Of a DNA stretch of 64,000 bases, positions 13,370-34,538 are shown in pieces; position 1 is the stretch's first letter, and each line of letters opens with the position of its first letter. Source of the stretch: a virus. Position numbers and translations under genes: made by a program. The stretch spans positions 1 through 64,000 of the IMG/VR virus record IMGVR_UViG_3300036817_000261; one strand, written 5' to 3'. Under the pieces are notes generated by a model. The model was not told the origin of the DNA. It worked only from the letters and a program-made list of their open reading frames with translations, and made no database searches.

Positions 13370-13415
13370 AAAGAAAGCCTAAGGCTGTTCCGTTGATTTG
13401 TCAAGTGTATTACCA
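13370..13415 (-). promoter_or_regulatory. operon-start element (TTGAC family), copy e
   Basis: Read leftward, AATACACTTGACAAATCAAC stands 32 bases before the helicase ATG. The core is the inverted repeat TTGA-N4-TCAA at 13393-13404. It matches the copies before the genes starting at 20059, 21864, 22578 and 24393. TTGACA could be a -35 box, but no good -10 follows at the usual distance. Confidence 0.55.
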
Positions 13416-13567
13416 TCCTTCTTCTTCCCCCATCTGACATTAGCCGCCTTACTTCCAGAGGTGGAGCGGCGCTTGGTGACTCCTCCCTTTTTGCCCATCA
13501 GCCGCGCCCCTATCTGGCGCAGCCACTGGTCATTTAAGATCTTTCCGCAATGATAACATCTAGCCAC
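13379..13567 (-). CDS. small basic protein with a CxxC knuckle
   Basis: 62 residues starting at GTG 13567. The start is chosen because GGGAGG stands 8 bases upstream and the GTG overlaps the stop of the 102-residue gene by 8 bases. The N-terminus is VARCYHCGK, with a single CxxC, followed by a very basic Gly/Lys/Arg-rich tail with a GKKGG motif. Probably nucleic-acid-binding. Longer upstream starts would only read through the neighbour's shadow. Confidence 0.6.
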   Translation of the reverse strand: MARCYHCGKILNDQWLRQIGARLMGKKGGVTKRRSTSGSKAANVRWGKKKDGNTLDKSTEQP

Positions 13568-13868
13568 TCGAGTCGCCTCCCAGCTCGACCTCGATTCCTT
13601 GAGGAGGAGGGGTTGCCTTGGTGGATTCGGCCAGCTCGGATAGGTCGATGCGCCAGCCTCGGCGCTCGTGATCAGGGTTGCCAACTTCCAACCCGTTCTT
13701 TTTCCAGAACCGCAAAACGCCGTAACCGATAACTCGCACAAGCACCTGGGACTGCCGCCAGCCGATGATCTCGCCCTGCTCGGTCCTGAGGCTCGGCGGC
13801 TCGGGCACCTTGTCATACCAATAGGTGTCGATTATCAGGGCATGCCCGATCTCAAGTTTCTGCTTCAT
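13560..13868 (-). CDS. conserved phage hypothetical protein
   Basis: 102 residues starting MKQKLEIGHAL. It looks like a compact beta-rich domain with IIGWRQSQVLVRVIGYG and LRFWKKNGLEVGNP. It sits between two leftward genes, and its 5' flank is copy A of the 48-bp repeated element, which ends two bases before the start codon. That position would put the element in its leader. Function unknown. Confidence 0.65.
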   Translation of the reverse strand: MKQKLEIGHALIIDTYWYDKVPEPPSLRTEQGEIIGWRQSQVLVRVIGYGVLRFWKKNGLEVGNPDHERRGWRIDLSELAESTKATPPPQGIEVELGGDSSG

Positions 13869-13870
13869 TC

Positions 13871-13918
13871 GTTAAGAATTCGGAAGCTGTTTCGGTTGTT
13901 TTTGAACCACTTATGCAG
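13871..13918 (-). repeat. 48-bp conserved element, copy A
   Basis: Read leftward it ends AAACAGCTTCCGAATTCTTA, identical over about 21 bases with copy C at 44802-44848. The outer half (CATAAGTGGTTC) matches copy B at 24931-24978. It spans the stop codon of the 291-residue gene and runs to the next start. Confidence 0.8.
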
Positions 13919-14786
13919 CAATTTCGACCGTAATTCGGAGGTTCTCGATCTCCGCATAGGCTTTGCCACCCCGGCTCCGGGCGACATCTCCCAGCTCTCC
14001 CACCGTGGTTGAGAGATCAAATGCGGTTTCCTCGTACTGGACGGCTTTCTTGAGGGTCCAGCGTTTGATCACAATCCAGTAGGCGAGGTTTTTGACCATC
14101 TCGGTCTCGTTCTGGCTCCAGGCGATCAGATCCCGCTCACTCACCTTTGGGTTCTCGGCCCTAACGGCATCGGCGTACTCGTCGCCGCAAAGCCGCCGGA
14201 TCCGGTTCAAGGCTTTCTCCCCTTCCTCGCTCAAGACTGCCCCTCGGACCACGGCTCCGTTAGGCAACGTCGCATCCAGATCAATCTCAATCCCTTTAGG
14301 CAGAGGCTTAGGTTTGACGGCTCTGGTTTGATAGTCGCCGGTTTTAGTCCGGTGTTGTTCGACGGCGTCCCTGACCATGTCGTAACTGGCTACGGCCTGC
14401 TGTTTATCGCAAAAGTCTAGGATCTGCTGCCAGAGCCCAAGCATGCTCTCCGGCTTTTTGATTTTGATCAGCTCTACGACCTGACTCTGGGTGTAGGGCA
14501 ACTGGAGTTTTTGCTCTTTAATCAGCTCCAACGCGGGACTGGCGCGCATACAAAAGCGCGCCAGCCTATAGTCATATTTCAGACAGTGTTCGACGTATTC
14601 CTGAAAGTCATTTTTGCCCATCACCTCGAAGAGTTCGCCCTCTTCGATTTTGATCAGTTCCCTGCCAATGATTCGGATCGATTCGACCGTGTCCTTACTA
14701 GCTTTCGCTATCTTGAGTTCGCATTCGGCTAGCGCATCATGCCGTGTTTTAGTGGCATCTTTCTCTGCAAGAATAGTGTTACTCAT
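13911..14786 (-). CDS. hypothetical protein, DUF3102-like in pattern
   Basis: 291 residues, mostly helical and charged. The N-terminal third (DTVESIRIIGRELIKIEEG) resembles plasmid/phage proteins that carry a DUF3102-type or ParB-accessory segment: a helix, then an FxxYxxxxxxxYxxAxxxM block. I do not see a clear helix-turn-helix or catalytic site. It follows recT in the same direction with 15 bases between them. A DNA-binding role in replication or recombination is plausible but unproven. Confidence 0.6.
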   Translation of the reverse strand: MSNTILAEKDATKTRHDALAECELKIAKASKDTVESIRIIGRELIKIEEGELFEVMGKNDFQEYVEHCLKYDYRLARFCMRASPALELIKEQKLQLPYTQSQVVELIKIKKPESMLGLWQQILDFCDKQQAVASYDMVRDAVEQHRTKTGDYQTRAVKPKPLPKGIEIDLDATLPNGAVVRGAVLSEEGEKALNRIRRLCGDEYADAVRAENPKVSERDLIAWSQNETEMVKNLAYWIVIKRWTLKKAVQYEETAFDLSTTVGELGDVARSRGGKAYAEIENLRITVEIAA

Positions 14787-14801
14787 CCTGAAAGGATGAG
14801 T

Positions 14802-15935
14802 TTACACAGTCACCCAAGGTTTTGCAGTTTTATCGTAAGCGATTCTTTCTTCGATCGCTTTCAGGTCATCAAGCTGCTCTTTGGTAGCCTTGGCGATTTG
14901 TGCGTGTGCTGCCGGGACCCATTTGGACTCAACGAGTTGCATCTCAGCGGCGGTCAAGCTGCCGACCGTGCGACCTGCAAAGCTCTTGATGCCCTTGATC
15001 CCGTGGTCGACCCACCAGGGCTTCTCGGTTTCCTGCGGCGCTTGTTGCTGATCGGTTGGCGGGCTCATGTCAATGATGTCCTCCGGCAGGCCGGAGGGTG
15101 AAGCCGATGCAGCGCCCGTCGACTGAGAGGAACCCTCTTGGATAAAAGGGGTGACTTTTGGGTCCTGTCTCTGGGCCTCCTGATTACGCATCTGCGTCTC
15201 TTGGGGGAATTCTCTCTTGAGCTGGGATTCGAGCGGGGTCTGGGCCGCGCCTTGAGCTTGTGCGGCCTGCGAGTTGTTCCGGGCGGCGGCTTGGGCTTCT
15301 TCGCGGCTCTGCGCTTCCGCGTCAGCATCCACGAACTTGAGTGGCGGCAGTTGCTGCTCGATCGGGGCGTGCTGGGACGCGGCCAAATCTTCCAGTTCCT
15401 CAGTCGTGTAGAGACCCTTAAGGATGTCGGAGAATTCATCCCGCAGGCCGAAGCCCAGAGCCCGGTAATAGGTCATGCGTTTGGAGTACTGGGGCCAGAC
15501 CGGGTTACGGCTCCAGATCCCGGCCTGCTTCGCCTCTCTTACGCTGAAGGTGTAGTCATGCGGCTCGCCGCCCTGGCGCTGTAAGGTGACGGTACAGGTC
15601 AGGTCATCACCCTGGCCTTCCCAGACTTTCTTGTAGTCGGCGAGCTCCCCTTTCTGCCGGACCATCGCCAGGGCCAGATCGCCCATAATGCCGATCCGGT
15701 TATTAATGACCGTTAAACCGTCAATCGCCTGAAGCGGGCGCAGGCCCAGCTCAGCGCCTCTCGCCCAACAGATAATAAGTTGCTGGGGGGTCGTAAAGGC
15801 TTTGGGGGCAAAGCCCGATTGTAGATAGCACTGGGCGGCGCGGAACATGCCGTCAAGGTCCTCGAATTCAAAACCGCTACTCGGGTTGAATTTAACCGTT
15901 GCTCTGGATTCTTGTTCTTCGGTTTGGCTGCTCAT
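14802..15935 (-). CDS. recT: RecT-family single-strand annealing recombinase
   Basis: 377 residues. The core (about 30-180) has the RecT-type blocks ARGAELGLRPLQAIDGL, then FSVREAKQAGIW, and MTYYRALGFGLRDEF with the ILKGLYTTEEL ending of phage RecT-like annealases. The C-terminal 190 residues are Gln/Ala-rich and probably disordered, ending in a helical piece. RecT proteins bind single strands and anneal homologous DNA, usually with a partner exonuclease. The upstream coiled-coil gene is coupled by ATGA and may be that partner or an accessory. Confidence 0.85.
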   Translation of the reverse strand: MSSQTEEQESRATVKFNPSSGFEFEDLDGMFRAAQCYLQSGFAPKAFTTPQQLIICWARGAELGLRPLQAIDGLTVINNRIGIMGDLALAMVRQKGELADYKKVWEGQGDDLTCTVTLQRQGGEPHDYTFSVREAKQAGIWSRNPVWPQYSKRMTYYRALGFGLRDEFSDILKGLYTTEELEDLAASQHAPIEQQLPPLKFVDADAEAQSREEAQAAARNNSQAAQAQGAAQTPLESQLKREFPQETQMRNQEAQRQDPKVTPFIQEGSSQSTGAASASPSGLPEDIIDMSPPTDQQQAPQETEKPWWVDHGIKGIKSFAGRTVGSLTAAEMQLVESKWVPAAHAQIAKATKEQLDDLKAIEERIAYDKTAKPWVTV

Positions 15936-16687
15936 GAGATTCTGGACGCTGCTTTGATTGTTACACTTATGTCTTGTGTTACTTCAATGCCGGGAAGGGC
16001 CGGAGCATGGTCCGGCGCGATCTCCAGCTGGGCTCTAACAGCGTCCTGGCAAGCGAGAATGTCTACTTCAATTTTTAGCAAGCGTATGCACCCGGCTTTT
16101 ACCGTGGCCTCGGCGTTGATCAGCTTGAACTTAAAGGGGTGAGTCACGCGGCCCCCAGGCACCAATCCTTTCTCGGGCTCGATATTCATGGCGGCGACTT
16201 CCAGCTCAAGTCCGCGCTCTAACTCCGCCAGCTGCGCTGCTTGCGTCTGGCCGTCAGCCTGGAGCCGGTTCACTCTTTCCTCGTGCGCCTTTTCCTCGAG
16301 AGCTTTCTTGGCCCGGTCCAGCCGTTGTTCGTCTCGCTTTTTTGCCTCGAGCTGTTTCACGTAGCCTTTGAGAAGCTGGGCCAGCCGGTTCTCTTCAGCT
16401 TCCACTTTGCCGATCAGCTCTTTAGCGAGATCCTCAATTGAGGTCAGGACCGCTTCGAAGGGCCTTTTCGCGCCACGCTTCGCGTCATAGATCTCGCCAT
16501 GGGCGGCTTTGAGTTCTCCGGCAGCGCGCCGGGCGGCGGTGAAAGAGTCATCGTCTTTGACCTCGGTGATCTCTTTATTGATTCGCTCGGTCAGATCCAG
16601 AACACGTTTCCGGTCACTGGAGCGGATTTTGACAGAGACATCGCTGACGGTGAGAGGGTTCTCTCCGTAGTAGGGCGCTAGTTCCAT
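15932..16687 (-). CDS. coiled-coil protein coupled to recT
   Basis: 251 residues. Residues 30-180 are a long, highly charged coiled coil. A beta-rich C-terminal part follows (about 185-251). No nuclease motif is visible, so it is not a classical RecE or lambda Exo. Its stop overlaps the recT start as ATGA. Proteins of this shape (DUF1351-like by length and position) occur beside phage RecT genes and may be accessory. This is inference from context. Confidence 0.65.
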   Translation of the reverse strand: MELAPYYGENPLTVSDVSVKIRSSDRKRVLDLTERINKEITEVKDDDSFTAARRAAGELKAAHGEIYDAKRGAKRPFEAVLTSIEDLAKELIGKVEAEENRLAQLLKGYVKQLEAKKRDEQRLDRAKKALEEKAHEERVNRLQADGQTQAAQLAELERGLELEVAAMNIEPEKGLVPGGRVTHPFKFKLINAEATVKAGCIRLLKIEVDILACQDAVRAQLEIAPDHAPALPGIEVTQDISVTIKAASRIS

Positions 16688-17041
16688 TTAGTGAGTGGGA
16701 GTGGTTTGGGTCGCCTCGCTAGCAAACTGGGTCCAATAGGCGGTGACGGCATCCTCGAGGTTCTGAGCCTCTTGTAGGCGGATTGCCCTCATCATCGGAA
16801 AGTAGTCGGCGAGATTGGCTTTGGCGTGTTTCACGGCCCGGATCAGCATGAAGCGCATGCTTATCACGTCCCGGCGGCGGAAGTACTGGCCGTTTAAGAT
16901 CCGTCTCATGTTTCCGCGCTCGTTGCCACTTGAGACGGCGACAATGTTATCGTGCAGGGGAACGATGGCCTTAGCCAGCTCCTCTACCTCGGTCGAATTG
17001 TGACGGTAATGGACATGGGCATCCACTGTGCTCGTGATCAT
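16688..17041 (-). CDS. hypothetical protein, first gene of the recT operon
   Basis: 117 residues with no domain I recognise. It is helical, with a basic middle (RRILNGQYFRRRDVISMR). The stop directly abuts the next start (TAAATG). A 131-base non-coding gap lies upstream with a TATAAT box, so this gene probably opens the recT-helicase operon. Confidence 0.65.
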   Translation of the reverse strand: MITSTVDAHVHYRHNSTEVEELAKAIVPLHDNIVAVSSGNERGNMRRILNGQYFRRRDVISMRFMLIRAVKHAKANLADYFPMMRAIRLQEAQNLEDAVTAYWTQFASEATQTTPTH

Positions 17042-17126
17042 AACGTGCTTTCGTTCTGGCGACTAGAGGGAAGTCGCCTTGGGCTTATGCACAGGTTATA
17101 ACCTGCATCGCGCAATGCGCAACGCT

Positions 17127-17172
17127 TAAAAAGCAATGCTTTTATCGCTAAATTATAGTGGAAGCATGCTTT
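17127..17172 (-). promoter_or_regulatory. putative promoter with palindromic sites for the recT operon
   Basis: On the leftward strand a perfect TATAAT lies at 17157-17152, 111 bases before the start at 17041. It is flanked by AAAAGCAATGCTTTT (17129-17143) and AAGCATGCTT (17162-17171), palindromes related to the 14-bp repeat at 9938 and 11638. The -35 match is poor, so activation or repression through the palindromes is plausible. Confidence 0.5.
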
Positions 17173-18432: not shown

Positions 18433-18483
18433 GATTTTGGGCTCATCTGGCGCTAAGCCTGTCGGCGTTTACCGATGTGCATG

Positions 18484-18507: not shown

Positions 18508-18514
18508 CTCGGGC

Positions 18515-19306: not shown

Positions 19307-20059
19307 TTACGCTGCCATGCTGTCAGTATCCCAGTACTCACTGGCCAAGCCGCCGGAGGCGCGGTCTGCTGCCTCGCGCTGGGCTTCCAAGGCCTTGGCC
19401 TTGGCGATGATATCGTCTAGCCGGTTGGCCGTCGCGACCACTTGCGCGGCCGCCTGGGCCACCCGGTTAGCCCTCCTTTCCTCGCCTGCCATATCCTCGC
19501 GAGCCACCTCGGCCAGCTTGGCCGATACGAAGGTGGGCACGTTGGTGCAGGCGATGTCAGCCGGTCGCGTGACCAAGGCCGGTGCCGCTGGGGCAACCGG
19601 CGCTTCGATCACGTTCGCCTTGGAGGGGCGCGAGAAGAACCCGAAAGCCGCCTCCTTGGGCTCGACCGTCGCCGTGAAGCTCACGCGCAGGCCTTTGCAG
19701 TTGTAGCCCAGGCTCGAGGGAATCGTGCCCCAGACCTTCCAGCCTGCGTCCGACTGGACCAGCATCTTGTGGCAGCCGCCGAAGTTGCTCTCTTGGTACT
19801 TGGTGGAAAGGACCGTGCCAGTGACTTCGACCCGGCCTTGCGGCATCGGGCTGGTGACGACCACTGCGGCGCGCTCGGCTTGGCGCTCGGCATACTGAGT
19901 CAGGGAGCGGCGGAGTGCTGCCTCCTGGCGCTCGGTCAGCGAGCCGTAGCGCTCGAAGCTCGCCGCTAAGGACGAGTAGAAATTGTCGGTGCGACCGCGC
20001 GCGGCCAGTTCAGCGATGACGCGAGTCAGTTCCTCTCTCAGGGCTTGTTGTGCTTGCAT
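19307..20059 (-). CDS. hypothetical protein with an OB-like central domain
   Basis: 250 residues. An N-terminal helical part contains SLTERQEAALRRSL, a short motif often seen in phage and replication-linked proteins. A beta-rich domain lies at about 72-145 (VEVTGTVLSTKYQESNFGG, then GWKVWGTIPSSL, and FGFFSRPSKANV), whose pattern suggests an OB-like fold. An Ala/Pro linker and a C-terminal coiled coil follow. The gene starts ATGCAAGCA behind operon-start element d, with a good GGAGGA ribosome site. A nucleic-acid-binding role is inference. Confidence 0.65.
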   Translation of the reverse strand: MQAQQALREELTRVIAELAARGRTDNFYSSLAASFERYGSLTERQEAALRRSLTQYAERQAERAAVVVTSPMPQGRVEVTGTVLSTKYQESNFGGCHKMLVQSDAGWKVWGTIPSSLGYNCKGLRVSFTATVEPKEAAFGFFSRPSKANVIEAPVAPAAPALVTRPADIACTNVPTFVSAKLAEVAREDMAGEERRANRVAQAAAQVVATANRLDDIIAKAKALEAQREAADRASGGLASEYWDTDSMAA

Positions 20060-20063
20060 GTAG

Positions 20064-20107
20064 AGATCCTCCGCTATTCCACTTGATAAATCAAGCGAAT
20101 AATCAAG
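20064..20107 (-). promoter_or_regulatory. operon-start element (TTGAC family), copy d
   Basis: Read leftward: TTGATTATTCGCTTGATTTA, then TCAAG, the inverted repeat TTGA-N4-TCAA, and the ribosome site GGAGGATCTC before ATG 20059. Confidence 0.55.
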
Positions 20108-20125
20108 CTAAGGCAAAGAAAAGGT

Positions 20126-20760: not shown

Positions 20761-21864
20761 TTAAGCGGCCAGGGCTAGGAGGCGTTGCCATTCGGGCTGC
20801 GCCAGCTCCACAACAGCCGCTCCGGCGCGTTCCAGCTCGGTAGCCCGGTCATAAGACTCGACCTTCTGCGAGAAGGCTGTAACGGCATTGTAGAGGCCGA
20901 AGCGGGTCAAATCGCCGCCTTCAATCAAGGCGCTCAAGACTCCCTTATTTTCGCCTTCGGTCAGGCCGATTTGTTTGCCGGTGAGGTTCACCAGTTTCAC
21001 CACGTCGACGTCGCTAATTTTTTCCTTGGCCGTGCCCTCGACTGTGTCAACCAGCTCGTTGAACCGGGCCGGATCGAATGCGTTAGTGACCACATCGCGG
21101 ACTTGGCTCATCAGGGCCGCGTTGGTCAGATTCTGGGTCTGAGCGGACAAGAGCGCCACCACATCCTCGCCCAGCAGATCATGCCGTGCGCCAACGTGAT
21201 ACTTCTTCATGGAGCGGGCCGCGAAGGTCGCCAGATTCGAGCAGAAGCTGTCATAGATCCCGGCTTGAATCGAGAGGGCACCGTGACCGACTTCGCTATT
21301 CGAGATCGTGATCGCGGGAGCCGCGATTCGCACAATCTTGTGCTGGCCATCGCCCATGAAGTTGCCGGTCTCAGCCAGCTTGCGGGAGACTGAGCGGTCC
21401 ACCACCTTGATGTACAGCTTTCGCTCGGTGACTTCACAGGACATGATGTCGAACCGACCGCCATCCAGAAGCAATGGCAACACGGTCTCGGCCAAATCCT
21501 CGTTCTCGATGGGGCGGAATTTGTCGGAGAGGAACGCGCGGGCTTTGCCGTCCAGGGTGCGCACCATGCGCTTCTGGCCGCTCGCTTTGCCCAGCCACGT
21601 ATTGACGTTAGTCGCCAAGAGTTCCGGGTTTTCGTAGCGCATCCGGTCGTAGTAAGCCGCCGGGATTTGCACGTACTGACCGATCTGGTCGTGGGTGATT
21701 TCGTTGATACCGAATTCCTCGTCACCGACTCGCAGGGTCGCGGTCTTGGTTTCGTTGAGGGCGAGCATGGTGAGCGCTTCGGCGCGGGCCACGTAATCGT
21801 GCTTGGCACCGGCTCTGCGTTGAATCTCTTCTGCTAACTGGACTAGGGTTCTACCTGATTTCAT
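20761..21864 (-). CDS. DUF932-like phage/plasmid protein
   Basis: 367 residues. The pattern (FGINEITHDQIGQYVQIPAA with YYDRM, then LLATNVNTWL, then AFLSDKFRPIENEDLAETVL, and TISNSEVGHGALSIQAG) matches the DUF932/phage-plasmid-like family widespread in phages and plasmids. Its function is unsettled; it often sits in replication or early regions. The start follows a leader of about 45 bases with a palindrome, behind operon-start element b. Full length for the family as far as can be judged. Confidence 0.75.
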   Translation of the reverse strand: MKSGRTLVQLAEEIQRRAGAKHDYVARAEALTMLALNETKTATLRVGDEEFGINEITHDQIGQYVQIPAAYYDRMRYENPELLATNVNTWLGKASGQKRMVRTLDGKARAFLSDKFRPIENEDLAETVLPLLLDGGRFDIMSCEVTERKLYIKVVDRSVSRKLAETGNFMGDGQHKIVRIAAPAITISNSEVGHGALSIQAGIYDSFCSNLATFAARSMKKYHVGARHDLLGEDVVALLSAQTQNLTNAALMSQVRDVVTNAFDPARFNELVDTVEGTAKEKISDVDVVKLVNLTGKQIGLTEGENKGVLSALIEGGDLTRFGLYNAVTAFSQKVESYDRATELERAGAAVVELAQPEWQRLLALAA

Positions 21865-21909
21865 TTGCTTGCTTGCTTTTCTTTTTTGGTTTCGCGGGGT
21901 TCTCCCGCT

Positions 21910-21960
21910 TGGCCGAGAGTCTCGGCTATTTATTTTGATATGTCAAATGCTTTTTCAAGA
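21910..21960 (-). promoter_or_regulatory. operon-start element (TTGAC family), copy b
   Basis: Read leftward: TTGAAAAAGCATTTGACATA with TCAA, then the palindrome CCGAGACTCTCGG (21913-21925), which is also present in imperfect form in copy a. The unit is followed by the DUF932-like gene. Confidence 0.6.
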
Positions 21961-22228
21961 GGCGTGCTAAGTACCACTTGGATGGCTCCCATTCATTGAC
22001 CATGACGTAGCCATGCTGCATCATGGGATAATCCCTCGAGAATGTTGGCTGCTCTGATTTGCGGCGAGAGAGCACGTCAGTTTTGCCATAGATCACATTG
22101 AGCGTGTCGCTGACTTTGCGCGGCTTTAGATCGAGGCGCTCGGCGATTTCTTTGACACTGAGCCCTTTCTCAGTGTCAAGATAGCGCTCTACCACTAGGT
22201 CGATGATCTGCTGGGCCAGTGGCGTCAT
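21926..22228 (-). CDS. winged-helix-like DNA-binding protein
   Basis: 100 residues from ATG 22228 (MTPLAQQIID), coupled by ATGA to the upstream stop. Residues about 20-45 are a helix-turn-helix (LSVKEIAERLDLKPRKVSDT) followed by a putative wing. It may be a small transcription regulator, possibly acting on the repeated operon elements nearby. No target is proven. Confidence 0.7.
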   Translation of the reverse strand: MTPLAQQIIDLVVERYLDTEKGLSVKEIAERLDLKPRKVSDTLNVIYGKTDVLSRRKSEQPTFSRDYPMMQHGYVMVNEWEPSKWYLARLLKKHLTYQNK

Positions 22229-22578
22229 AATCCTAAGCTGGCAAAGCGGGCGTTGATGGCGGCAGAGAGTTTGGTTTCGCGCCAGCCGCAACCCTCACAA
22301 ACGTAGGTTCTATTAAAGCCCAGGCCGCGAATGTGGACTTGGTCGCCGACCGACATGGAGCGCAGCCGGAGGGCCCGGTACTCGGGCTGGCTGATTAGCT
22401 CAGTGCCGTCGACGTGATTGCACTGGCGGAATACGACCTCTAAGGCCTCTTCGATGGTTTGGACCCGCTCCGGGCCGAAGCCATAGATGCGGTTAGGCAC
22501 GCTAAATTCGGAGTCACAATCAAAGGCCCGGTAATAGACGTGGGTGATTACCAGGGCTGGAAACGGAGTTGCTTGCAT
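22225..22578 (-). CDS. conserved phage protein with SVGD motif
   Basis: 117 residues from ATG 22578 (MQATPFPALV), in the ATGCAAGCA start context. It is beta-rich; the C-terminal part has SMSVGDQVHIRG then YVCEGCGWRE, with one CxxC. The SVGD block is common in small phage proteins of unknown function. It is preceded by operon-start element c. Confidence 0.7.
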   Translation of the reverse strand: MQATPFPALVITHVYYRAFDCDSEFSVPNRIYGFGPERVQTIEEALEVVFRQCNHVDGTELISQPEYRALRLRSMSVGDQVHIRGLGFNRTYVCEGCGWRETKLSAAINARFASLGL

Positions 22579-22579
22579 G

Positions 22580-22627
22580 GCTGGAAACCTCGGGCCTATT
22601 ACTTGAAAAGTCAAATGATATTTCAAG
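22580..22627 (-). promoter_or_regulatory. operon-start element (TTGAC family), copy c
   Basis: Read leftward: TTGAAATATCATTTGACTTT with TCAAG, the same order as copies a and b, ending 31 bases before ATG 22578. Confidence 0.6.
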
Positions 22628-22769
22628 GCCGCATTAGGGAGGGAGGACCAAGCTGCTTATCTCGGATGATCACAGCTTTCACTCTGCCATTCTCATCGAA
22701 TTGGAATTCCACCTCATAGCCCCGCAAGGTGAACTCATTATAGATGCGTTCTGCGTCTGCCCGGTTCAT
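22623..22769 (-). CDS. small hypothetical protein (48 aa)
   Basis: Starts MNRADAERIYNEFTLRGYEV, with a beta-hairpin-like centre (EFQFDENGRVKAVII). ATGA coupling to the membrane peptide gene upstream supports it. Function unknown. Confidence 0.6.
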   Translation of the reverse strand: MNRADAERIYNEFTLRGYEVEFQFDENGRVKAVIIRDKQLGPPSLMRP

Positions 22770-22946: not shown

Positions 22947-23029
22947 GGGCTCCGCTATGTTGATATTCAACTTGCATAAAACGCCGCAAATCGCCAAATC
23001 GAGGGGTTCTCACGTTCTTTCGAAGTTAA

Positions 23030-23575
23030 TTACTTGTCAGCTGGTTTCTGATTAGCTGTCAGCTGTTGGAGTGCGGCCAGGAGCGGAATGACGCCTTTTA
23101 CGTCGATAGAGACGTCGCCACTATAATCAGTAAACTTGAACAGATTGTCATCATGCCACTTTCCTTTTGGCCCCGGCTTGATTCCCGTGATCTGAAAAAA
23201 CAGCTTGACCAAGTCGCCGCTGGCTTTGTTGCGTGCGTCTATTTTCTCTTTCTCTGCTTTCTTCTCAGCCTCTGCGCGTTCCTTTAGCGTCTGGATCTCG
23301 GCGTATGTGCCTTGGATATTGGTTGGGTCCAGGGTTCGCTCGAGATACCTCGCGCGCTCAGCTGGGTCGGCTGGAAGCAGCTCGGCTGGCACGTCTCGCT
23401 CATCGATGGCGCCGTGAACCTTATGGAGATAATCAGCAGCGGTCGCTTTGAGCTTCCGGCGCTTTAGATGGCTTTCTACGTACTCGACCTTGAAGCGAGC
23501 CAAGTACGTCTCTTTACTGTCTGTGTAAATGGTGACGGCGTAGACGGTGCCTGGATCTATCTGGGATGCTTGCAT
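23030..23575 (-). CDS. hypothetical protein with a coiled-coil middle
   Basis: 181 residues starting ATGCAAGCATCC, the shared operon start context. The N-terminal 45 residues are beta-rich (VYAVTIYTDSKETYLARF). A charged coiled coil follows at about 85-125 (IQTLKERAEAEKKAEKEK), then a C-terminal globular part with KWHDDNLFKFTDYSG. Unknown function. The TTGAC element is not evident directly upstream; a 54-residue gene is there instead. Confidence 0.65.
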   Translation of the reverse strand: MQASQIDPGTVYAVTIYTDSKETYLARFKVEYVESHLKRRKLKATAADYLHKVHGAIDERDVPAELLPADPAERARYLERTLDPTNIQGTYAEIQTLKERAEAEKKAEKEKIDARNKASGDLVKLFFQITGIKPGPKGKWHDDNLFKFTDYSGDVSIDVKGVIPLLAALQQLTANQKPADK

Positions 23576-24174: not shown

Positions 24175-24393
24175 TTAGTCTTGAGTGCGGCAAGTGGAGT
24201 GTGTTGCGCCTGAAGGCAACACGTAGCGGATTCTGTTAGGCTCACCGGCATCGCTCCAGGTGCAGAGCATCGGAGAGATGATTCTGGAGGTGGCGCGCAG
24301 GCTGGGATGGCGGCTGCGGCAATAGATTTGCCAGTCGCGGATAGCGACTTGGCGAGCTTCGTGCTCTGGTTTGTAGATGTTATCTGCTTGCAT
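24175..24393 (-). CDS. small hypothetical protein, first gene of an operon
   Basis: 72 residues starting ATGCAAGCAGAT behind operon-start element a. It is basic, with two or three Cys near the C-terminus (CTWSDAGE, STCRTQD). No family recognised. It is followed with no gap by the next gene. Confidence 0.55.
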   Translation of the reverse strand: MQADNIYKPEHEARQVAIRDWQIYCRSRHPSLRATSRIISPMLCTWSDAGEPNRIRYVLPSGATHSTCRTQD

Positions 24394-24394
24394 G

Positions 24395-24443
24395 ACTGAG
24401 AGTCTCGGTCATGCGTTTTGAATTGTCAAATGCTATTTCAAGG
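24395..24443 (-). promoter_or_regulatory. operon-start element (TTGAC family), copy a
   Basis: Read leftward: TTGAAATAGCATTTGACAAT with TCAA, then an imperfect palindrome around GAGACTCTC directly before ATG 24393. Confidence 0.6.
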
Positions 24444-24644: not shown

Positions 24645-24924
24645 CAATCACCGCTTTCGCCTTGGCTACCGCATCTTCCAGTACCTTGGCTTTTTCTAGC
24701 ACAAAGAATTCGTACATCCGGTGCTGGAAGAACTCATTGTAGTCGCCCAGGTGGGCTGGAGGTCCCGAGTGCATGAAGTTCACCGTGGTGGCAGCCAGGG
24801 CCTGGAGCACATCAAAGATCTGGGCACCCACGATCGGGGCCGAATAACAGCGCCGGATGGTTTTGGTAAGCTCGAGGGCCAGCTCAGCGATCTTTTCCTC
24901 GTGTTGAGTAGTGATTCCGCTCAT
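24628..24924 (-). CDS. helical hypothetical protein
   Basis: 98 residues, mostly helical, with a His/Tyr-rich middle (GDYNEFFQHRMYEFFVLEK). Its 5' flank holds copy B of the 48-bp element in the opposite orientation. Function unknown. Confidence 0.6.
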   Translation of the reverse strand: MSGITTQHEEKIAELALELTKTIRRCYSAPIVGAQIFDVLQALAATTVNFMHSGPPAHLGDYNEFFQHRMYEFFVLEKAKVLEDAVAKAKAVIDEQHQ

Positions 24925-24930
24925 TTTTGC

Positions 24931-24978
24931 GTCATAAGTGGTTGAAAAACAGGCAAAACTCCTTCCGAATTCTTAAGG
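24931..24978 (+). repeat. 48-bp conserved element, copy B
   Basis: Reads GTCATAAGTGGTTGAAAAAC, then AGGCAAAACTCC, TTCCGAATTCTTAAGG. It fills the 57-base gap between two leftward genes, in the orientation opposite to them, so it need not act as their promoter. Confidence 0.8.
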
Positions 24979-24981
24979 AAT

Positions 24982-25386
24982 TCACCATTTCTGTCCGAAA
25001 TAGACGCGCAAAACTTGGTCGATACAGAGATCTGGATTGATCCGGCGCTGCCAGTGATGTTCCCAGGTGATAGTGCCAGCGATGGCTGCAACACTGGTAG
25101 GGCAATCAACGACGCCTTCGAACCAGCCGACTACGAGGCCATAGCCGGTGATAGGATGCTCGCCATTGACGCTAGCGACCTTGAATTGTGGATAGACGAA
25201 CGGCTCCCTGATGAGCGCGCACTCGTCCACATAGATAGCAACGCGGACGCCGCGCAGTGCGCCGCCAAACATGAGCTGCTGGACAAGGTCACAATCTAGA
25301 AGGTTGTGAATGTAGCGCTGGTCGGCCCAGTTCACGATCAGTGGCACAAGCTCGCATTTAAAGGGATCGATCACGATGGCCCTCAC
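24982..25386 (-). CDS. DUF3846-like protein
   Basis: About 134 residues from a GTG at 25386; ATG 25440 is an alternative. The pattern IVIDPFKCELVPLIV, then GGALRGVRVAIYVDE, ITGYGLVVG and TWEHHW is that of the phage/plasmid DUF3846-type family: a small alpha-beta domain of unknown function. No strong ribosome site is visible. The start lies only about 50 bases from the divergent gene at 25439. Confidence 0.65.
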   Translation of the reverse strand: MRAIVIDPFKCELVPLIVNWADQRYIHNLLDCDLVQQLMFGGALRGVRVAIYVDECALIREPFVYPQFKVASVNGEHPITGYGLVVGWFEGVVDCPTSVAAIAGTITWEHHWQRRINPDLCIDQVLRVYFGQKW

Positions 25387-25438
25387 CAACTTGACATCCG
25401 GCGGCGGAGCTGGTTCTCTTTTGTGGGTACAGGAAAGC

Positions 25439-26023
25439 ATGCCCGAACCTACTGACAACGACCCAGTTTTGCACGCACTAAATGCGGCCAAGGAGCGGCA
25501 GCGTGGAGTCATTGTTCCTATGCGCCTGCCTCCAGCCTCCACGTTGGCCCCAGATGCGCCAGCGCCTCACTTAGGTGATCTTATAGCGGAGATGGGCCCG
25601 CAACGCGTCCTAGACGCTCTCAAGGCCTGGGATATGCGCCTTGGCGGCAGGCCGATCAATGAGGTTGCGCACGAGTTCAATCTTTCGATTGAGGGAGCAA
25701 AGATCTTAATCAAGGAGGCGCATGAAGCAATCAAGGAAGACCTTAAAGAGTCGATTGAGCAAAACAGGAGCTTGGATCTGGCACGAATTGATGGGCTTTT
25801 ACAGACATGGTATCCCGCAGCCAAAGCGGGCGACGACAAAGCGGCGACGATTACCTTAAAATGTATTGAGCGCCGGGCCAAGCTCACCGGCACAGAGCCA
25901 GATGAGAGAGTGGACCGCACCCAGCCACGCAACGTGCTCGTATGGGTCCAGCAGCAGCTGCCCAGCATCAATAAGATTGTCGACAGCCTGCCGGTTGAAT
26001 TAGCGCCAGGAGCACCGTCATGA
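25439..26023 (+). CDS. helix-turn-helix protein, terminase-small-subunit-like
   Basis: 194 residues from ATG 25439, chosen because AGGAAAG stands just upstream; an ATG at 25376 lacks this. Residues about 45-100 carry an HTH-like helical pair (GRPINEVAHEFNLSIEGAKI). The block ARIDGLLQTWYPAAKAGDDK, then LKCIERRAKLTG, is a pattern seen in phage small-terminase-like and other HTH proteins. The large terminase is 20 kb away, so a packaging role is uncertain; it could be a regulator of the operon it opens. Confidence 0.65.
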   Translation: MPEPTDNDPVLHALNAAKERQRGVIVPMRLPPASTLAPDAPAPHLGDLIAEMGPQRVLDALKAWDMRLGGRPINEVAHEFNLSIEGAKILIKEAHEAIKEDLKESIEQNRSLDLARIDGLLQTWYPAAKAGDDKAATITLKCIERRAKLTGTEPDERVDRTQPRNVLVWVQQQLPSINKIVDSLPVELAPGAPS

Positions 26024-27090: not shown

Positions 27091-27367
27091 AGAGTTCAGC
27101 CTGACACCAAGCCAGCGCGAGGATTTAACCCAGGTGATCATCCGGGTGATTCCGCCCGAGCTGCAAGATGACTGGAGCAAGCTTGGCGACTTTGAGCTTT
27201 TAATGACGGGGCTGATGGCCGCGTACGAAGATGGGCTGTCGCCGGAGCAGACGATGGAATGGCTCAGAGATCAACTAGGCATCAGCAGAGAAGCAGCGAT
27301 GTGCGCATTAGGCACATTGGCGGTGAACGCGATAGAGGTGCAGCAGAAGATGATTCAGCGAAATTAG
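27080..27367 (+). CDS. helical hypothetical protein
   Basis: 95 residues from ATG 27080 (MTAEEFSLTPSQR); an ATG at 27059 would overlap the previous gene by 32 bases. All helical, with no motif I can name. It ends the first run of this operon, before a 216-base gap. Confidence 0.6.
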   Translation: MTAEEFSLTPSQREDLTQVIIRVIPPELQDDWSKLGDFELLMTGLMAAYEDGLSPEQTMEWLRDQLGISREAAMCALGTLAVNAIEVQQKMIQRN

Positions 27368-27583
27368 AGGCGAGCCAGGGAGGATTCGAACCGCCATCTT
27401 AGGGCTTCCGCCCAACCATTTTAACCAGGGTTGCCGGTCGGAGGATTCGAGGCGTTTCATGATGTGATCAGCACCACTTGCCGCTCCGAGCTGCGCAGTC
27501 TCCCCCGTCTTGGCCACCACTTAAACTACTGGCTCGAGGAAGATTCTCGCAGATCCAAATCATTTGTCAATTAGATAATCAAA
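27368..27583. other. gap with tRNA-like T-arm fragments and a TTGAC-type site
   Basis: On the leftward strand TCGAATCCTCC occurs twice, 61 bases apart. One copy sits in a T-arm-like GGCGG-TTCGAAT-CCTCC. No complete cloverleaf can be drawn. At 27561-27583, read leftward, TTGATTATCTAATTGACAAA resembles the operon-start elements. A GTG-started leftward frame of 70 codons (27308-27520) crosses the gap; I do not call it. Confidence 0.35.
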
Positions 27584-30799: not shown

Positions 30800-30806
30800 T
30801 TGACTT

Positions 30807-31118
30807 TCATTGCTGGCCCGGTACTCGGGTCGCCTGCTCCGCGCTCCCTGGCACGTTCATGTCGAACTCCATCTGCTTAGCAGTAAACCACACCGTCAGA
30901 CGGCTCCTGGCCTGTACCATTGCCCCTAGGGCAGCGGAGAGCTCGTCGCGTAAGCGCTCCTCGTTCCAGTTCCACATGGCTTCCGCCGCCAGCACCAAGC
31001 CCACCCAGAGACACTCGCGTTCCCTCCCTGGCTGGGTCATGTCGATTAAAATTAACATCGCTAGAACGATGTGCTGCTGCGTCGGTTCTCCGATGTCAAC
31101 TCCGGGGCGCTCGCTCAT
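30807..31118 (-). CDS. helical hypothetical protein
   Basis: 103 residues, helical, with many Trp/Glu residues (VLAAEAMWNWNEERLRDELS). No family recognised. It lies between the zinc ribbon and a small coiled-coil gene. Confidence 0.55.
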   Translation of the reverse strand: MSERPGVDIGEPTQQHIVLAMLILIDMTQPGRERECLWVGLVLAAEAMWNWNEERLRDELSAALGAMVQARSRLTVWFTAKQMEFDMNVPGSAEQATRVPGQQ

Positions 31119-31153
31119 TTAGGGTTGAGTACTGCCGTAAGTGTTGCCGGGAT

Positions 31154-31366
31154 TTATCGGGCGCTGGATGAGGGGGCGCTTCCTGTCACTGTCTCGGCTG
31201 ATTTAACTTCCACTCTAGCTAACTTCCACTCTAGCTGCGCCAGCCGTTCTTCCAAGTTCTCCAGCTGGGCCGTATGATTCTTCAAGAGGAGCCGTACCGT
31301 GTCGATGGCACCAAAGGTCTGCTCCCTCAAAATTCGTACTTCGCGAATGAGCGAGTCAGTGCTCAT
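31154..31366 (-). CDS. coiled-coil hypothetical protein
   Basis: 70 residues. Residues 1-50 form a heptad coiled coil (LIREVRILREQTFGAIDTV, then QLENLEERLAQLEW). A 16-base tandem duplication lies inside the 3' half (31204-31235) and shifts frame between the two copies. Start coupled by ATGA to the 172-residue gene. Confidence 0.6.
   Translation of the reverse strand: MSTDSLIREVRILREQTFGAIDTVRLLLKNHTAQLENLEERLAQLEWKLARVEVKSAETVTGSAPSSSAR
31204..31235. repeat. 16-bp tandem duplication
   Basis: TAACTTCCACTCTAGC occurs twice in direct succession. Sixteen is not a multiple of three, so the second copy is read in another frame in the small coiled-coil gene. Confidence 0.8.
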
Positions 31367-31881
31367 TGCAGGAGGGCTTTCATGTCTTCAGGACCCAGCT
31401 TACTGAAATCAATGGCCGCGTTTAAGAGCGCCCCGATCCAGCTCTCCATCCTCTTGGGATTATTCGCGCCAGCCCCCAGCTTCTCGCACTTGCCGCTTTC
31501 TCCCCGAATGATGTCCCAGCTCCAGAAATGCACCTCTTTTCCCCCGGTGCCGACTAAACAAAAAACGACCTCCTTGCGGTCAGGCCGGTCACGAGACCGC
31601 ACGAAAGGCGGCTGCTGCTGCACCGAAGTCCAGGCCTCACTGACAAAGCTCCAGGCCCGTGCGCCACCGCTAGCGATCTGTTTGCCTGCCTTCATCACCA
31701 TCGCTTTTTTCTCGGCGTCATCGCGCCACGGGCATCCGATGATCTCCACATTGCCATCCTCTTTCGCGACCACGATGGTCGGCATTACCGGTTCCCCCAG
31801 GCCGATCAGGACCTGGGCAACAAAATCGTGTGCCGTCTTGACCAGATTATCCACTACTTCAGCTTCTGTTTGCGTGCTCAT
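31363..31881 (-). CDS. conserved-type phage protein
   Basis: 172 residues. MPTIVVAKEDGNVEIIGCPW, then EKKAMVMKAGKQIASGGARA, AWSFVSEAWTS, and RDRPDRKEVVFCLVGT make up a phage protein pattern I have seen but cannot name: an alpha-beta domain of unknown function. Its start codon lies only 27 bases from the divergent start at 31909. Confidence 0.7.
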   Translation of the reverse strand: MSTQTEAEVVDNLVKTAHDFVAQVLIGLGEPVMPTIVVAKEDGNVEIIGCPWRDDAEKKAMVMKAGKQIASGGARAWSFVSEAWTSVQQQPPFVRSRDRPDRKEVVFCLVGTGGKEVHFWSWDIIRGESGKCEKLGAGANNPKRMESWIGALLNAAIDFSKLGPEDMKALLQ

Positions 31882-31890
31882 TCAACCCTT

Positions 31891-31914
31891 GGTATATCAT
31901 ACCCACCCATGGGT
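31891..31914. promoter_or_regulatory. divergent operator candidate with two inverted repeats
   Basis: GGTATATCATACC (31891-31903) and ACCCATGGGT (31905-31914) fill the gap between two divergent start codons. The second palindrome contains the ATG of the rightward gene. A dimeric repressor site is plausible. Confidence 0.5.
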
Positions 31915-32415
31915 CGTCCACCGGTCAGTGCCAAAGCCAAAGAGATAAACCGCAATAATGTCCGGCGCTGGAAAGAAAAGAACCCGGATCGGGTAAAAGC
32001 CCAGCGTGCCAGGGCACGGGCTCGGACACGAGTGGAGCGGGCTATCGAAATGCGCCGCACCGATCCAACCGGCGAGCTTGCCTACGGGCCAATCGATGGT
32101 GTAGACCGGGCTCCGGATGCAAAAGAACCCGATCTCCCTCTCGCTTGCTCTGACCCAGATTCTGGAGTTAGAGAAGGACTTGCAACTGATCAAGCCCCTA
32201 GGCCCGCTCTCGAGCCACCTCCTATGGACGACCCAACGCTATCTGCGAATTCTCGCTCTGCTTTACAAGGACGCACTGGTATCATCGAACCACCTGAACT
32301 GGCCGAAGGACTGGCCGAAGAACGTGAGCGGCTCAAAAACTTCCGGCTCCTCCAAGGCCTCCACGATATCCGCGCGAAAATCGCCAGAGAAAACGGGATA
32401 GAAATCGACCTGTGA
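31909..32415 (+). CDS. basic hypothetical protein, VSAKAKEINR type
   Basis: 168 residues. The N-terminus is strongly basic (NNVRRWKEKNPDRVKAQRAR), like phage DNA-binding or structural-scaffold helices. The centre is Pro/acidic and disordered, and the last 50 residues are again helical. The start is the ATG inside an ACCCATGGGT palindrome. No catalytic motif. The stop is coupled to a GTG. Confidence 0.6.
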   Translation: MGRPPVSAKAKEINRNNVRRWKEKNPDRVKAQRARARARTRVERAIEMRRTDPTGELAYGPIDGVDRAPDAKEPDLPLACSDPDSGVREGLATDQAPRPALEPPPMDDPTLSANSRSALQGRTGIIEPPELAEGLAEERERLKNFRLLQGLHDIRAKIARENGIEIDL

Positions 32416-32612
32416 AAGTCAAGCAGCAGGCCAAAATGATGGAGGCGCTTCCAGGTTGCCGCTGGGGAAAACCCGAGTCGAAAGATTCGACGGACGATAG
32501 CCGAGGTCGCGAATTGACGCCGGAGGTTGCGCTTAAGAACGGGGCGTCGGCACACGCCCACTCCATCACCTTACTGCCGGAATGGAAGCCGAAGTATGAA
32601 CGAGCTCATTGA
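32412..32612 (+). CDS. small hypothetical protein
   Basis: 66 residues from GTG 32412, coupled by GTGA to the upstream stop. Polar, partly basic, with no clear fold. It overlaps the next gene by 17 bases. Confidence 0.45.
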   Translation: MKVKQQAKMMEALPGCRWGKPESKDSTDDSRGRELTPEVALKNGASAHAHSITLLPEWKPKYERAH

Positions 32613-32826
32613 ATTTTTCTGTCCTGCCTGCGACCACCGGATCGTCATAGAACCAAACCCCTGGGAACTTTTCGAACCGGCCCAGTTGAACATGCTGATC
32701 TGGGACATGGAACAAGGCGGCCACGGGGAACACCCCATGTGCGAGGATGCCAGGGAGGCCTTAGTCGAAATGGAGGCTAGGAAAGACCGAGGTTGTGCAG
32801 GCTCCCCTGGCCCATCGAGCCGGTGA
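32596..32826 (+). CDS. zinc-ribbon-like small protein
   Basis: 76 residues from ATG 32596. FFCPACDHRIVIEPNPWELF carries one CxxC and a later Cys, with an Asp/Glu-rich end. Function unknown. The 3' end overlaps a convergent leftward gene by about 50 bases. Confidence 0.55.
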   Translation: MNELIEFFCPACDHRIVIEPNPWELFEPAQLNMLIWDMEQGGHGEHPMCEDAREALVEMEARKDRGCAGSPGPSSR

Positions 32827-33097
32827 CTGTGTCGGGCGAGGCGGCATCGCAAACTCCGCTGGTGATCGTGTAGCCGTAGGGCCCGCTGGTTGAGGGGAAG
32901 CTCATAGCCCGCAGGTTGTACGGTGGCACTCCCACCTTCTGGGTCCAGGCCGATGGCATCGGCTTAACCGGCTCGCCGCCGGGGCCCCGCACGTAGCGGG
33001 GATAGGGACTGGAAGGCCGGAAATGGACTAGCTGCACATTTGTATTCGGAGCTGGACGAAACGAGCCGAATACCGGTATTATGTTCGTTTGTGGCAT
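32777..33097 (-). CDS. Pro-rich hypothetical protein
   Basis: 106 residues from ATG 33097 (MPQTNIIPVFGSFRPAP). Rich in Pro, Tyr, Ser and Gly, like the small tail-associated proteins at 41.1-41.6 kb. The C-terminus ends in GSMGQGSLHN. The start overlaps the start of the divergent nuclease-like gene, so both must share one promoter region of a few bases, or one start lies elsewhere. Confidence 0.5.
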   Translation of the reverse strand: MPQTNIIPVFGSFRPAPNTNVQLVHFRPSSPYPRYVRGPGGEPVKPMPSAWTQKVGVPPYNLRAMSFPSTSGPYGYTITSGVCDAASPDTVTGSMGQGSLHNLGLS

Positions 33098-33534
33098 ATC
33101 AGAGAAAGATCTACGAGCCGAAATTGTGCTTAGGCTGCGGCAAGGAGTTTCAGCCGCGTAAAAACTACCACATTTATTGTTCACAGAAATGCGCGGAGCC
33201 AACTTACCGGCCAGACCGTTATCATTTTGAGAAATCCATCCCCAGCGGGACGGTGGGTGCCATTGGTGAGCTTTACGTGAGTCTCTGGCTCATGCGTAAT
33301 GGCTGGGACGTCTATCGAGCACTGAGTCCAGCTGCCAGCTGTGACATTGCGGCGATCAAAGAAAATCGCTTATATCGATTCGAGGTCCGCACAGGCTACC
33401 GCAATCGTGCCGGACAGGTGTGCTATCCCAAAAAATCTATACGAGCCGAAAACGTTGCGGTCGTCATCTACCCAGAACCAGAGCTTGTTTTCCTGCCGGA
33501 AACACCTCTGCCAGCAAAGATGCTTGAGAATTAA
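33091..33534 (+). CDS. PD-(D/E)XK-like endonuclease with a zinc-finger N-terminus
   Basis: 147 residues from GTG 33091; a TTG at 33040 is another option. The zinc-finger-like N-terminus (LCLGCGKEFQPRKNYHIYCS) is followed by GAIGELYVSLWLMRNGWDVY and SCDIAAI and RFEVRTGYRN, which together fit a PD-(D/E)XK nuclease core (Asp, then Glu-x-Arg/Lys). Resolvase-like or homing-like; the exact class is unclear. A perfect TATTAT lies 9 bases before the GTG, so the message might be nearly leaderless. Confidence 0.65.
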   Translation: MAYQRKIYEPKLCLGCGKEFQPRKNYHIYCSQKCAEPTYRPDRYHFEKSIPSGTVGAIGELYVSLWLMRNGWDVYRALSPAASCDIAAIKENRLYRFEVRTGYRNRAGQVCYPKKSIRAENVAVVIYPEPELVFLPETPLPAKMLEN

Positions 33535-33706
33535 TGAATCTTCGATTCTGGTCGACGCACATGAGGGCTCCTGGGGCATTGTAGGGGCTTGGCCAAGTCG
33601 TCTGAAAGGGAGCCGGTTTGCACGGCACAGGTTTCCAGCCACTGAACTTCGAGCACCCCGAATAGGGAGATTGGAAGAGGACCGACTGGACAAAGGGCCT
33701 GTTCAT
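33464..33706 (-). CDS. hypothetical protein overlapping a convergent gene
   Basis: 80 residues (MNRPFVQSVLFQSPYSG), rich in Pro, Phe, Ser and Tyr. The ATG overlaps the upstream gene's stop by ATGA, which supports it. The 3' third lies under the nuclease gene on the other strand. Function unknown. Confidence 0.4.
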   Translation of the reverse strand: MNRPFVQSVLFQSPYSGCSKFSGWKPVPCKPAPFQTTWPSPYNAPGALMCVDQNRRFINSQASLLAEVFPAGKQALVLGR

Positions 33707-34125
33707 AGCGTGAACCCGGCGATGGATGCTGCGCCACTGGCAGCAGCGGCGATCCCGCCCCAACCGGTCGCTTTAAACTTGGTCCGGTGCGGCAGGAACT
33801 TGATCAGGCGCTTCTGGACGGCGTGCTGGTTGCAGATCTCGATGGCATCGTGACGCTTCTTCTCTCCCGGCCAGCGGTTAATCTGCAGCCAGCCATCATG
33901 CCAGTCATAGAAAAAGCAGCGCCAATAGCGAAAGGTCGAGCCGATTGCCGCTCGTTCAATCCGATAGGACTCCCCGCATTCGTCGCCCTGGAAATCCAGC
34001 TCGATGCCGTCAGCCTGCGCGGCGGCATTGGCTAGCAGATTGCTGTAGTTGGCCTGCGCCTGCATGAGGGCATTGGCGTCGACCGGCGCTTGCGCCTGGG
34101 CATTGGCAAAGTTGTACTCATTCAT
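33703..34125 (-). CDS. hypothetical protein
   Basis: 140 residues from ATG 34123-34125 (MNEYNFANAQAQAPVDANAL). The N-terminus is Ala/Gln-rich helix. A Trp-rich middle (YRIERAAIGSTFRYWRCFFY then DWHDGWLQINRWPGE) is followed by a basic region and a small Ala/Gly hydrophobic end. The start overlaps the upstream stop by 8 bases (ATGAATGA). Function unknown. Confidence 0.6.
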   Translation of the reverse strand: MNEYNFANAQAQAPVDANALMQAQANYSNLLANAAAQADGIELDFQGDECGESYRIERAAIGSTFRYWRCFFYDWHDGWLQINRWPGEKKRHDAIEICNQHAVQKRLIKFLPHRTKFKATGWGGIAAAASGAASIAGFTL

Positions 34126-34336
34126 AGCCCACGATCTCCTTGCACTTCCAGCAGATGACGGCGCAGTAGGGCTGCTCATAGAACTCGATCCAGGGAAAGG
34201 TTTTCTTTAATCGCATCCCGCACGCGCCTCGCTGCACTTGGCCGCGCAGAAACGGATCGAAAGGTTCAGCGCCGCACTTGGGGCAGCGCCGGAAAGGAGG
34301 AAGAGTCCCCTCAAGGAGCTTGGATTCGATGGGCAT
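34118..34336 (-). CDS. zinc-ribbon protein
   Basis: 72 residues: RCPKCGAEPFDPFL, then a third Cys (ACGMRLKK), and VICWKCKEIVGYE form a four-Cys ribbon. Its leader holds a TTGAC element at 34465-34470 and a strong hairpin. Function unknown. Confidence 0.65.
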   Translation of the reverse strand: MPIESKLLEGTLPPFRRCPKCGAEPFDPFLRGQVQRGACGMRLKKTFPWIEFYEQPYCAVICWKCKEIVGYE

Positions 34337-34425
34337 CTTTCTCTTGGCTTACGCCAAAGCCCTGTGCTATTCAAGAGCTGAAAGAGCGAGGTCCTTAAAA
34401 CGAACTCGTGAAAACCGATCAGACA

Positions 34426-34463
34426 GAGGCTCGGAGCTGAGTGGCTTCGAGCCTCTTGTTTTA
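34426..34463 (+). terminator. terminator-like hairpin overlapping a TTGAC site
   Basis: GAGGCTCG/CGAGCCTC (8 bp) followed by TTGTTTTA rightward. Read leftward, TTGACAAT lies right behind it (34470-34463), as in the operon-start elements. It may therefore act as attenuator or operator for the leftward zinc-ribbon gene. Confidence 0.5.
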
Positions 34464-34538
34464 TTGTCAAGTAGTTATTTCTTCCGAGGGAGACAGTGCT
34501 GTTCTCCCAGGGCAACTTGGAAAACTAACATTTCCATT

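Follow-up and report, generated by a model that had tools for sequence, protein, structure and literature searches.

Putative leaderless early promoters overlaid by an operator-like dyad in a group of soil phages

The window analysed here is a stretch of 64,000 nt, positions 1 to 64,000 of a 74,105-bp metagenomic contig (IMG/VR record IMGVR_UViG_3300036817_000261, hereafter G000), which belongs to a soil phage known from metagenomes only. In five places on its minus strand it carries an element, with about 53 nt common to the five copies, which is built of TTGA and TCAA boxes and lies ahead of a gene start. We consider these copies to be, on balance, dispersed leaderless promoters of the sigma70 type lying under a phage-specific operator of an early regulon, the operator probably serving a repressor.

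Several viral contigs of the same group were obtained through terminase searches. These relatives are small in number and in part fragmentary; open reading frames supplied the gene starts, and all inference is from sequence. The protein encoded at 57852-59093 is 93-99.5% identical across the group relatives and, by its conservation and place and without a family match, is taken as the major capsid protein. The relative G001 is collinear with the window phage at approximately 70-85% nucleotide identity. Alignments of the terminase and capsid proteins against species genomes and annotated phage records gave no host and no named relative, and exact-pattern scans of viral contigs gave mostly chance matches among the matches listed.

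The five elements and their genes

A sequence-only reading had placed copies of the element before the starts at 13367, 20059, 21864, 22578 and 24393. All five were found, with -35 boxes starting at 13404, 20094, 21946, 22614 and 24429 (elements A to E, Table 1). Six occurrences of the string TTGANNNNTCAA are found in 64 kb, where 0.99 would be expected, and none of 100 shuffles reached this number; five of these occurrences are the element copies and the sixth (14009) lies within gene 13911-14786. The longer pattern TTGAN4TCAA-N22..25-ATGCAAG was observed four times and in none of 300 shuffles, and TTGAN8TTGAN4TCAA four times against a shuffle mean of 0.013. When 53-nt matrices were built with one copy left out, each copy was the best remaining match in the 74,105-bp record, the copies scoring 13-52 bits and the best non-copy 3-7 bits.

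The copies are less uniform than had been described. The exact string CATTTGACnnnTCAA is present in elements C, D and E but reads CACTTGAC in A and CGCTTGAT in B, and the upstream TTGA box is missing from A. A distance of 30-40 bases between boxes and ATG holds for four copies (TTG at 35-37 nt) but not for the ATG at 21864 (82 nt). The shared gene start ATGCAAGC was confirmed at 13367, 20059, 22578 and 24393, as well as at 23575, which is without such an element. The element is also longer than first noted, since it takes in a conserved hexamer, spaced 17 bp away, and reaches the start codon.

Table 1. Elements A to E and associated genes of the window
Feature	Position	Strand	Details
Element A	13360..13418	-	-35 TTGACA 13399-13404; TCAA 13393-13396; -10 TAGGCT 13376-13381; ATGCAAGC from 13367
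Helicase gene behind element A	11784..13367	-	phrog_16 E=1.2e-75; orthologues in eight relatives
Element B, before gene 19307-20059	20052..20108	-	left arm TTGA 20103-20106; -35 TTGATT 20089-20094; TCAA 20083-20086; -10 GAGGAT 20066-20071; ATGCAAGC from 20059
Element C, before DUF932-like gene	21908..21960	-	left arm TTGA 21955-21958; -35 TTGACA 21941-21946; TCAA 21935-21938; -10 GAGACT 21918-21923
DUF932-like gene behind element C	20761..21864	-	phrog_1362 E=1.6e-44; Pfam DUF932 match short of the cut-off (E=0.004)
Element D, before gene 22225-22578	22571..22628	-	left arm TTGA 22623-22626; -35 TTGACT 22609-22614; TCAA 22603-22606; -10 GAGGTT 22586-22591; ATGCAAGC from 22578
Helix-turn-helix protein, 100 amino acids, candidate regulator, element-D operon	21926..22228	-	weak HTH matches, the best being Pfam HTH_20 (E=2.2e-4), short of its cut-off
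Element E, before gene 24175-24393	24386..24443	-	left arm TTGA 24438-24441; -35 TTGACA 24424-24429; TCAA 24418-24421; -10 GAGACT 24401-24406; ATGCAAGC from 24393

The operon headed by element D runs on into the helix-turn-helix (winged-helix) gene. By eye, the DUF932-like product behind element C looks similar to proteins from element-led genes of G018 (61732) and G007 (25180).

Promoter frame and start codon

The statement that no standard -10 follows the TTGACA needs amending, as a poor but registered hexamer (GAGRNT/TAGGCT; Table 1) sits 17 bp after TTGAC in all five copies. These hexamers agree with the -10 consensus at 2-3 of 6 positions. Over 20 elements from five phages the mean -10 matrix score peaks sharply at the 17-bp spacing (+1.33) and does not exceed about -1.9 at the other spacings from 8 to 29, and A2+T6 is found in 11 of the 20 at 17 bp versus 0-4 at other spacings. 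The elements thus have a -35 and a -10-like hexamer within the 16-18 bp typical of sigma70 promoters: TTGA(C/T), a 17-bp register and NANNNT-type -10s which are individually weak.

The ATG follows the -10 by 5-9 nt in 18 of these 20 elements. In four of the five window copies the hexamer lies 6-8 nt before the ATGCAAGC start codon, so that the transcript likely starts at or near it, and by this distance the four copies are predicted to head leaderless genes. Across nine group records, E. coli-like promoters with a -10 ending 5-9 nt before an ATG number 37 against 10.1 expected. The sequence ATGCA opens 14 of 18 element-led genes as compared with 6.5% of 626 other genes. According to one paper (PMC9031893, citing Martin-Farmer and Janssen 1999), CA repeats directly after the start codon raise leaderless translation; that ATGCAAGC does so in the same way is our guess.

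Equivalent promoters number 2-6 per relative, with four in G001, six in G014, three in G013 and two in G018, and the same architecture is combined with another dyad in G007 and G006. Promoter register and leaderless spacing recur in the relatives, and ATGCA in most of them. As to conservation, the promoter frame is kept; G013, G014 and G018 keep the TTGA/TCAA boxes as well, whereas G001 does not keep them fully.

Based upon these features a sigma70-type RNA polymerase would read a promoter consisting of -35 TTGAC(A/T), a 17-bp spacer and a degenerate -10, and transcription would start at, or a few bases from, the A of the ATG. With such a start, the mRNAs of four of the five first genes would be leaderless, with AUGCAAGC at the 5' end. 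The remaining gene (21864) would have a leader of about 45 nt, the predicted start site of element C being without a start codon.

Putative operator dyads and their change between phages

An outer dyad of the type TTGAA-N12-TTCAA, with arms at about -13 and +7 from the -35 and its axis at the upstream edge of the -35, is the top symmetry that the window phage, G013, G014 and G018 share. The arms are perfect in element B (CTTGAT/ATCAAG) and in element D (CTTGAAA/TTTCAAG). Compared with all TTGA sites of the same genome, the outer dyad gives Fisher P values of 3e-6 (window phage), 4e-5 (G013), 1e-5 (G014), 1e-3 (G018) and 8e-4 (G001). A dyad that lies over the promoter and is repeated at promoters which would be co-regulated is the picture expected of a repressor operator, and in four phages this dyad is the best or near-best. 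The sequence-only reading had offered a phage promoter or a repressor operator; both look right at once, the promoter being overlaid by the dyad.

The element would accordingly be a compound control site of the phage early regulon, promoter and operator in one. The putative operator is a dyad of 24-26 bp, TTGAA-N12..14-TTCAA, whose centre falls on the -35 hexamer's upstream edge, and may alternatively be read as two tandem 12-bp units, (TTGAnnnnTCAy)(TTGAnnnnTCAA). A dimeric phage regulator on this dyad would act as a block to polymerase at every site at once, so that the dispersed left-running operons would respond as one regulon.

The dyad is subject to turnover between phages. The G001 orthologue of element A, 587(-), reads TTGACA-17-TAAGAT-8-ATGCAAGC. 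That of element E, 10678(-), keeps the -35, GAGACT and ATGCAAG with both operator arms changed: CCTTGAAATAGCATTTGACAATTCAA...GAGACT...ATGCAAGC in the window versus CCTTAAGAATAAGCACTTGACAAATCCGTT...GAGACT...ATGCAAGT in G001. The G001 site at 7539 possesses a perfect dyad, AACGGA-N16-TCCGTT, on the same axis as the window dyad, and the exact strings AACGGAAATA and TCCGTTNGCA are confined to these elements in the G001 genome. Five G007 promoters have a 16-bp dyad, TTTCCTAATTAGGAAA, whose place runs from upstream of the -35, through overlap with it, to behind it (centres at -7, 0, +9, +9 and +21 from the -35). The G006 promoters, TTGAGT-17-TATRRT, have a spacer filled by repeated units of the GGTACC type, and one of these promoters faces a gene that weakly matches the CopG-type ribbon-helix-helix family. 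Since the dyad shifts in G007 and occupies the spacer in G006, it is separable from the promoter, and its varying place fits a blocking repressor. Where the putative binding site moves and the promoter frame stays, a repressor operator is the best reading, with activation less likely. A kept frame with differing operator letters is what would be expected if each phage had its own regulator specificity.

Two rival explanations have to be weighed against this evidence, and we regard both as unlikely to the same degree. In the first the TTGA/TCAA boxes are promoter parts, UP-like or alternative-sigma signals, with no separate operator. The central TTGA is indeed the -35, A/T-rich sequence lies directly upstream, and a weak -10 could mean a special sigma or an activator; however, orthologous promoters in the window phage and G001 differ in their outer arms but keep -35, -10 and ATGCAAG, and the G007 dyad moves relative to its promoter. 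As to an alternative sigma encoded by the phage, none was recognised among the proteins scanned, and the helix-turn-helix protein at 21926-22228 has weak sigma-r4-like matches. In the second explanation a phage activator bound to boxes around the -35 makes up for the poor -10. The low consensus agreement of the window -10s would suit this, as would the place of the dyad over the -35, which is fixed in the window phage, G013, G014 and the dyad-bearing G001 site. Activators, however, usually need a fixed place, whereas the G007 dyad ranges from -7 to +21, and two G007 promoters have TATAAT.

Regulators, remaining alternatives and known systems

The helix-turn-helix protein at 21926-22228 contains the sole DNA-binding domain that Pfam recognises among 71 early window proteins. 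Helices are placed at residues 25-32 and 36-47 in a low-confidence fold, whose best structural matches, themselves weak, are to LexA DNA-binding domains (E 0.03). As no relative was found elsewhere, it may at most serve the window phage, and as a regulator common to the group it was rejected. The ribbon-helix-helix-like protein of G006 was likewise set aside as an autorepressor (Pfam RHH_1 E=0.011, below cut-off; no PDB fold match) and is a lead only. The early proteins of G013, G014 and G018 include one with a Ku domain.

A number of observations weigh against leaderless promoters under a repressor operator. No relatives of the helix-turn-helix protein were found in other phages, those with TTGA operators included, and Pfam revealed no helix-turn-helix or ribbon-helix-helix regulator in 109 early proteins of G001, G007, G013, G014 and G018, nor a common regulator across these and the 71 window proteins. 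A standard consensus scan called none of the five window copies a sigma70 promoter. The dyad P values are optimistic because the copies within a genome are homologous, the full dyad is found at one of the four G001 sites, and the helicase copy, element A, has no upstream arm. Apart from these points, a blind pairwise comparison of pre-start sequences put element pairs at the top for the window phage, G001, G013 and G014, whereas for G018, G006 and G007 it did not; only G013 and the window phage exceeded shifted controls by more than a small margin.

The dyads might instead bind a host-encoded regulator, for example a LexA-like or FNR-like one, with operator differences reflecting different hosts. 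That Pfam recognised no conserved phage regulator in early proteins of the relatives would suit such a protein, and helicase and recombination genes would suit damage control. Against it, the alignments of terminase and capsid with species genomes gave no host, and the exact FNR spacing, TTGAT-N4-ATCAA, is without a match in the window. The TTGA-N4-TCAA found here is 2 bp shorter, and an FNR/CRP box was rejected. We hold this explanation to be improbable, much as the promoter-part and activator ones.

Far less credible is a translation signal, in which the conserved GAG(G) is a Shine-Dalgarno sequence, as first proposed for the start-associated sequence (SAS) of cluster K mycobacteriophages. 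GGAGG or GAGG does lie 8-11 nt upstream of the ATG at 20059 and 22578, and the start codon is the end of the element, but other elements read TAGGCT, TAAGAT, GATATA, TACAGT or TTTACT at this place, which is -10-like and not Shine-Dalgarno, and TTGAC and the 17-bp register are left unexplained. An RNA hairpin or terminator formed at the start codon by palindromes around GAGACTCTC can be given equally little credence: the -10 dyads are good in elements C and E (7/8 pairs, P 0.012 each), G001 587 contains CGTAAGATCTCTTACG and the plus strand is terminator-like, but the palindrome is not significant beyond single copies (P 0.16-0.93 in other phages) and was rejected as a general hairpin, which a transcript starting at the ATG would moreover leave outside.

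Three weaker copies had been proposed in addition. Those at 27561 and 34465 score -3.4 and -2.5 bits, which is background level, and at 22960 the full element was not matched. Downstream of the weak TTGACA site at 27561 is a tRNA-like stretch, GGCGGTTCGAATCCTCCCTGGCTCGCC (27367-27520, minus strand), which could be a tRNA remnant or attachment site; neither ARAGORN (default settings) nor Rfam gave a tRNA or Rfam element near 27.4 kb. The 34465 site comes after an intrinsic-terminator-like hairpin, GAGGCTCG..CGAGCCTC with TTGTTTTATT (34400-34560, plus strand). Behind this hairpin is the palindrome TATGGTAAATTACCATA, at the start of a basic protein of 75 amino acids (34554-34781) conserved in G001.

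A second family of repeats, 56-68 nt long and about 80% similar to one another, is found at 13867-13934 (plus strand), 24914-24981 and 44793-44848 (both minus strand). It reads TTAAGAATTCGGAAG...CACTTATG, one copy being inverted with respect to the other two. Among the relatives searched, the exact core strings of this family are confined to the window phage, and it is possibly another promoter, terminator or recombination element. The protein of 25376-26023 (plus strand) is kept in all relatives having the region and matches phrog_645 (named RNase E) with E=9.5e-16; by sequence it is possibly small terminase-like. Its gene is 20 kb from that of the large terminase and opposite in direction to the leftward cluster. 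An open reading frame of 2606 amino acids (32-7852, plus strand) has scattered PHROG matches of unknown function only. Among the relatives, G018 has a further start-associated family, TTGAAAA-N10-TTTTCA, at 55839, 58155 and 58999 on the plus strand (L123:15839-19000), which adjoins TTG(A/C/T)-17-(TATAAC-like)-ATG. A G013 element would drive a divergent gene with a PAPS-reductase-like (SGGKDS) domain (L125:4720-5688, minus strand).

What was an unlabelled repeat becomes a testable regulon map for this phage group, with its predicted early transcript starts indicated. With the promoter frame constant and the operator replaced from phage to phage, the relatives form a natural series, which offers a direct route to studying the joint change of operator and regulator specificity. 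More tentatively, the group may possess a heteroimmunity-like system without a recognisable CI-type repressor: in these soil phages with near-identical capsids and dispersed leaderless promoters, an unknown, fast-changing phage regulator would be matched by an operator (TTGAA/TTCAA, AACGGA/TCCGTT, TTTCCTAATTAGGAAA or GGTACC) rewritten per lineage at all or most sites, while the promoter frame and AUGCA are kept.

The lambdoid CI-Cro systems of lambda, 434 and P22 likewise combine homologous circuitry with differing operator letters and operators overlapping the -35 or -10 (compare PMC6550527). Lambda has tripartite operators at two divergent promoters, whereas here five dispersed promoters, each at an operon start, have a single dyad apiece and no CI/Cro pair was recognised. 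A -10 a few nt before the ATG is also found in the Deinococcus-Thermus motif adjacent to open reading frames (PMC12340547) and in bacterial leaderless genes (PMC3160421); those patterns are genome-wide in hosts, whereas ours belongs to phage early genes with a -35, an operator and ATGCAAG.

Nearest in kind are the extended SAS (ESAS) of cluster K mycobacteriophages, multi-copy inverted repeats linked to start codons within one phage group, with a consensus varying by subgroup; their authors thought sites for DNA-binding proteins of different specificities likely (PMC3203893). The ESAS arms are 17 bp long and adjoin the 13-bp SAS GGGATAGGAGCCC (PMC3203893), whereas the arms here are 5-6 bp and a -35/-10 frame is evident in register with the dyad. 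Identity with the SAS was rejected, GGGATAGGAGCCC having one 2-mismatch match in the window versus 2.07 expected. Nearest in logic are the operators and stoperators of cluster A phages (L5/Bxb1), dispersed repressor sites, some within early promoters, whose phage-specific consensus gives heteroimmunity (PMC6550527). Stoperators are asymmetric, 13-14 bp long, monomer-bound, present at 20-30 per genome and mostly off promoters (PMC6550527). By comparison the window has five dyad-bearing copies, all before gene starts, there are about five dyads per genome, at promoters, and repressor and immunity are putative. Cluster O phages have predicted leaderless SigA promoters, PL1 and PR2, and separate 17-bp dyad repeats mostly off promoters (PMC4351075), whereas here dyad and predicted leaderless promoter coincide. 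The group adds a phage case in which a predicted operator and a predicted leaderless start fall together, and none of clusters K, A and O unites the defining features found here.

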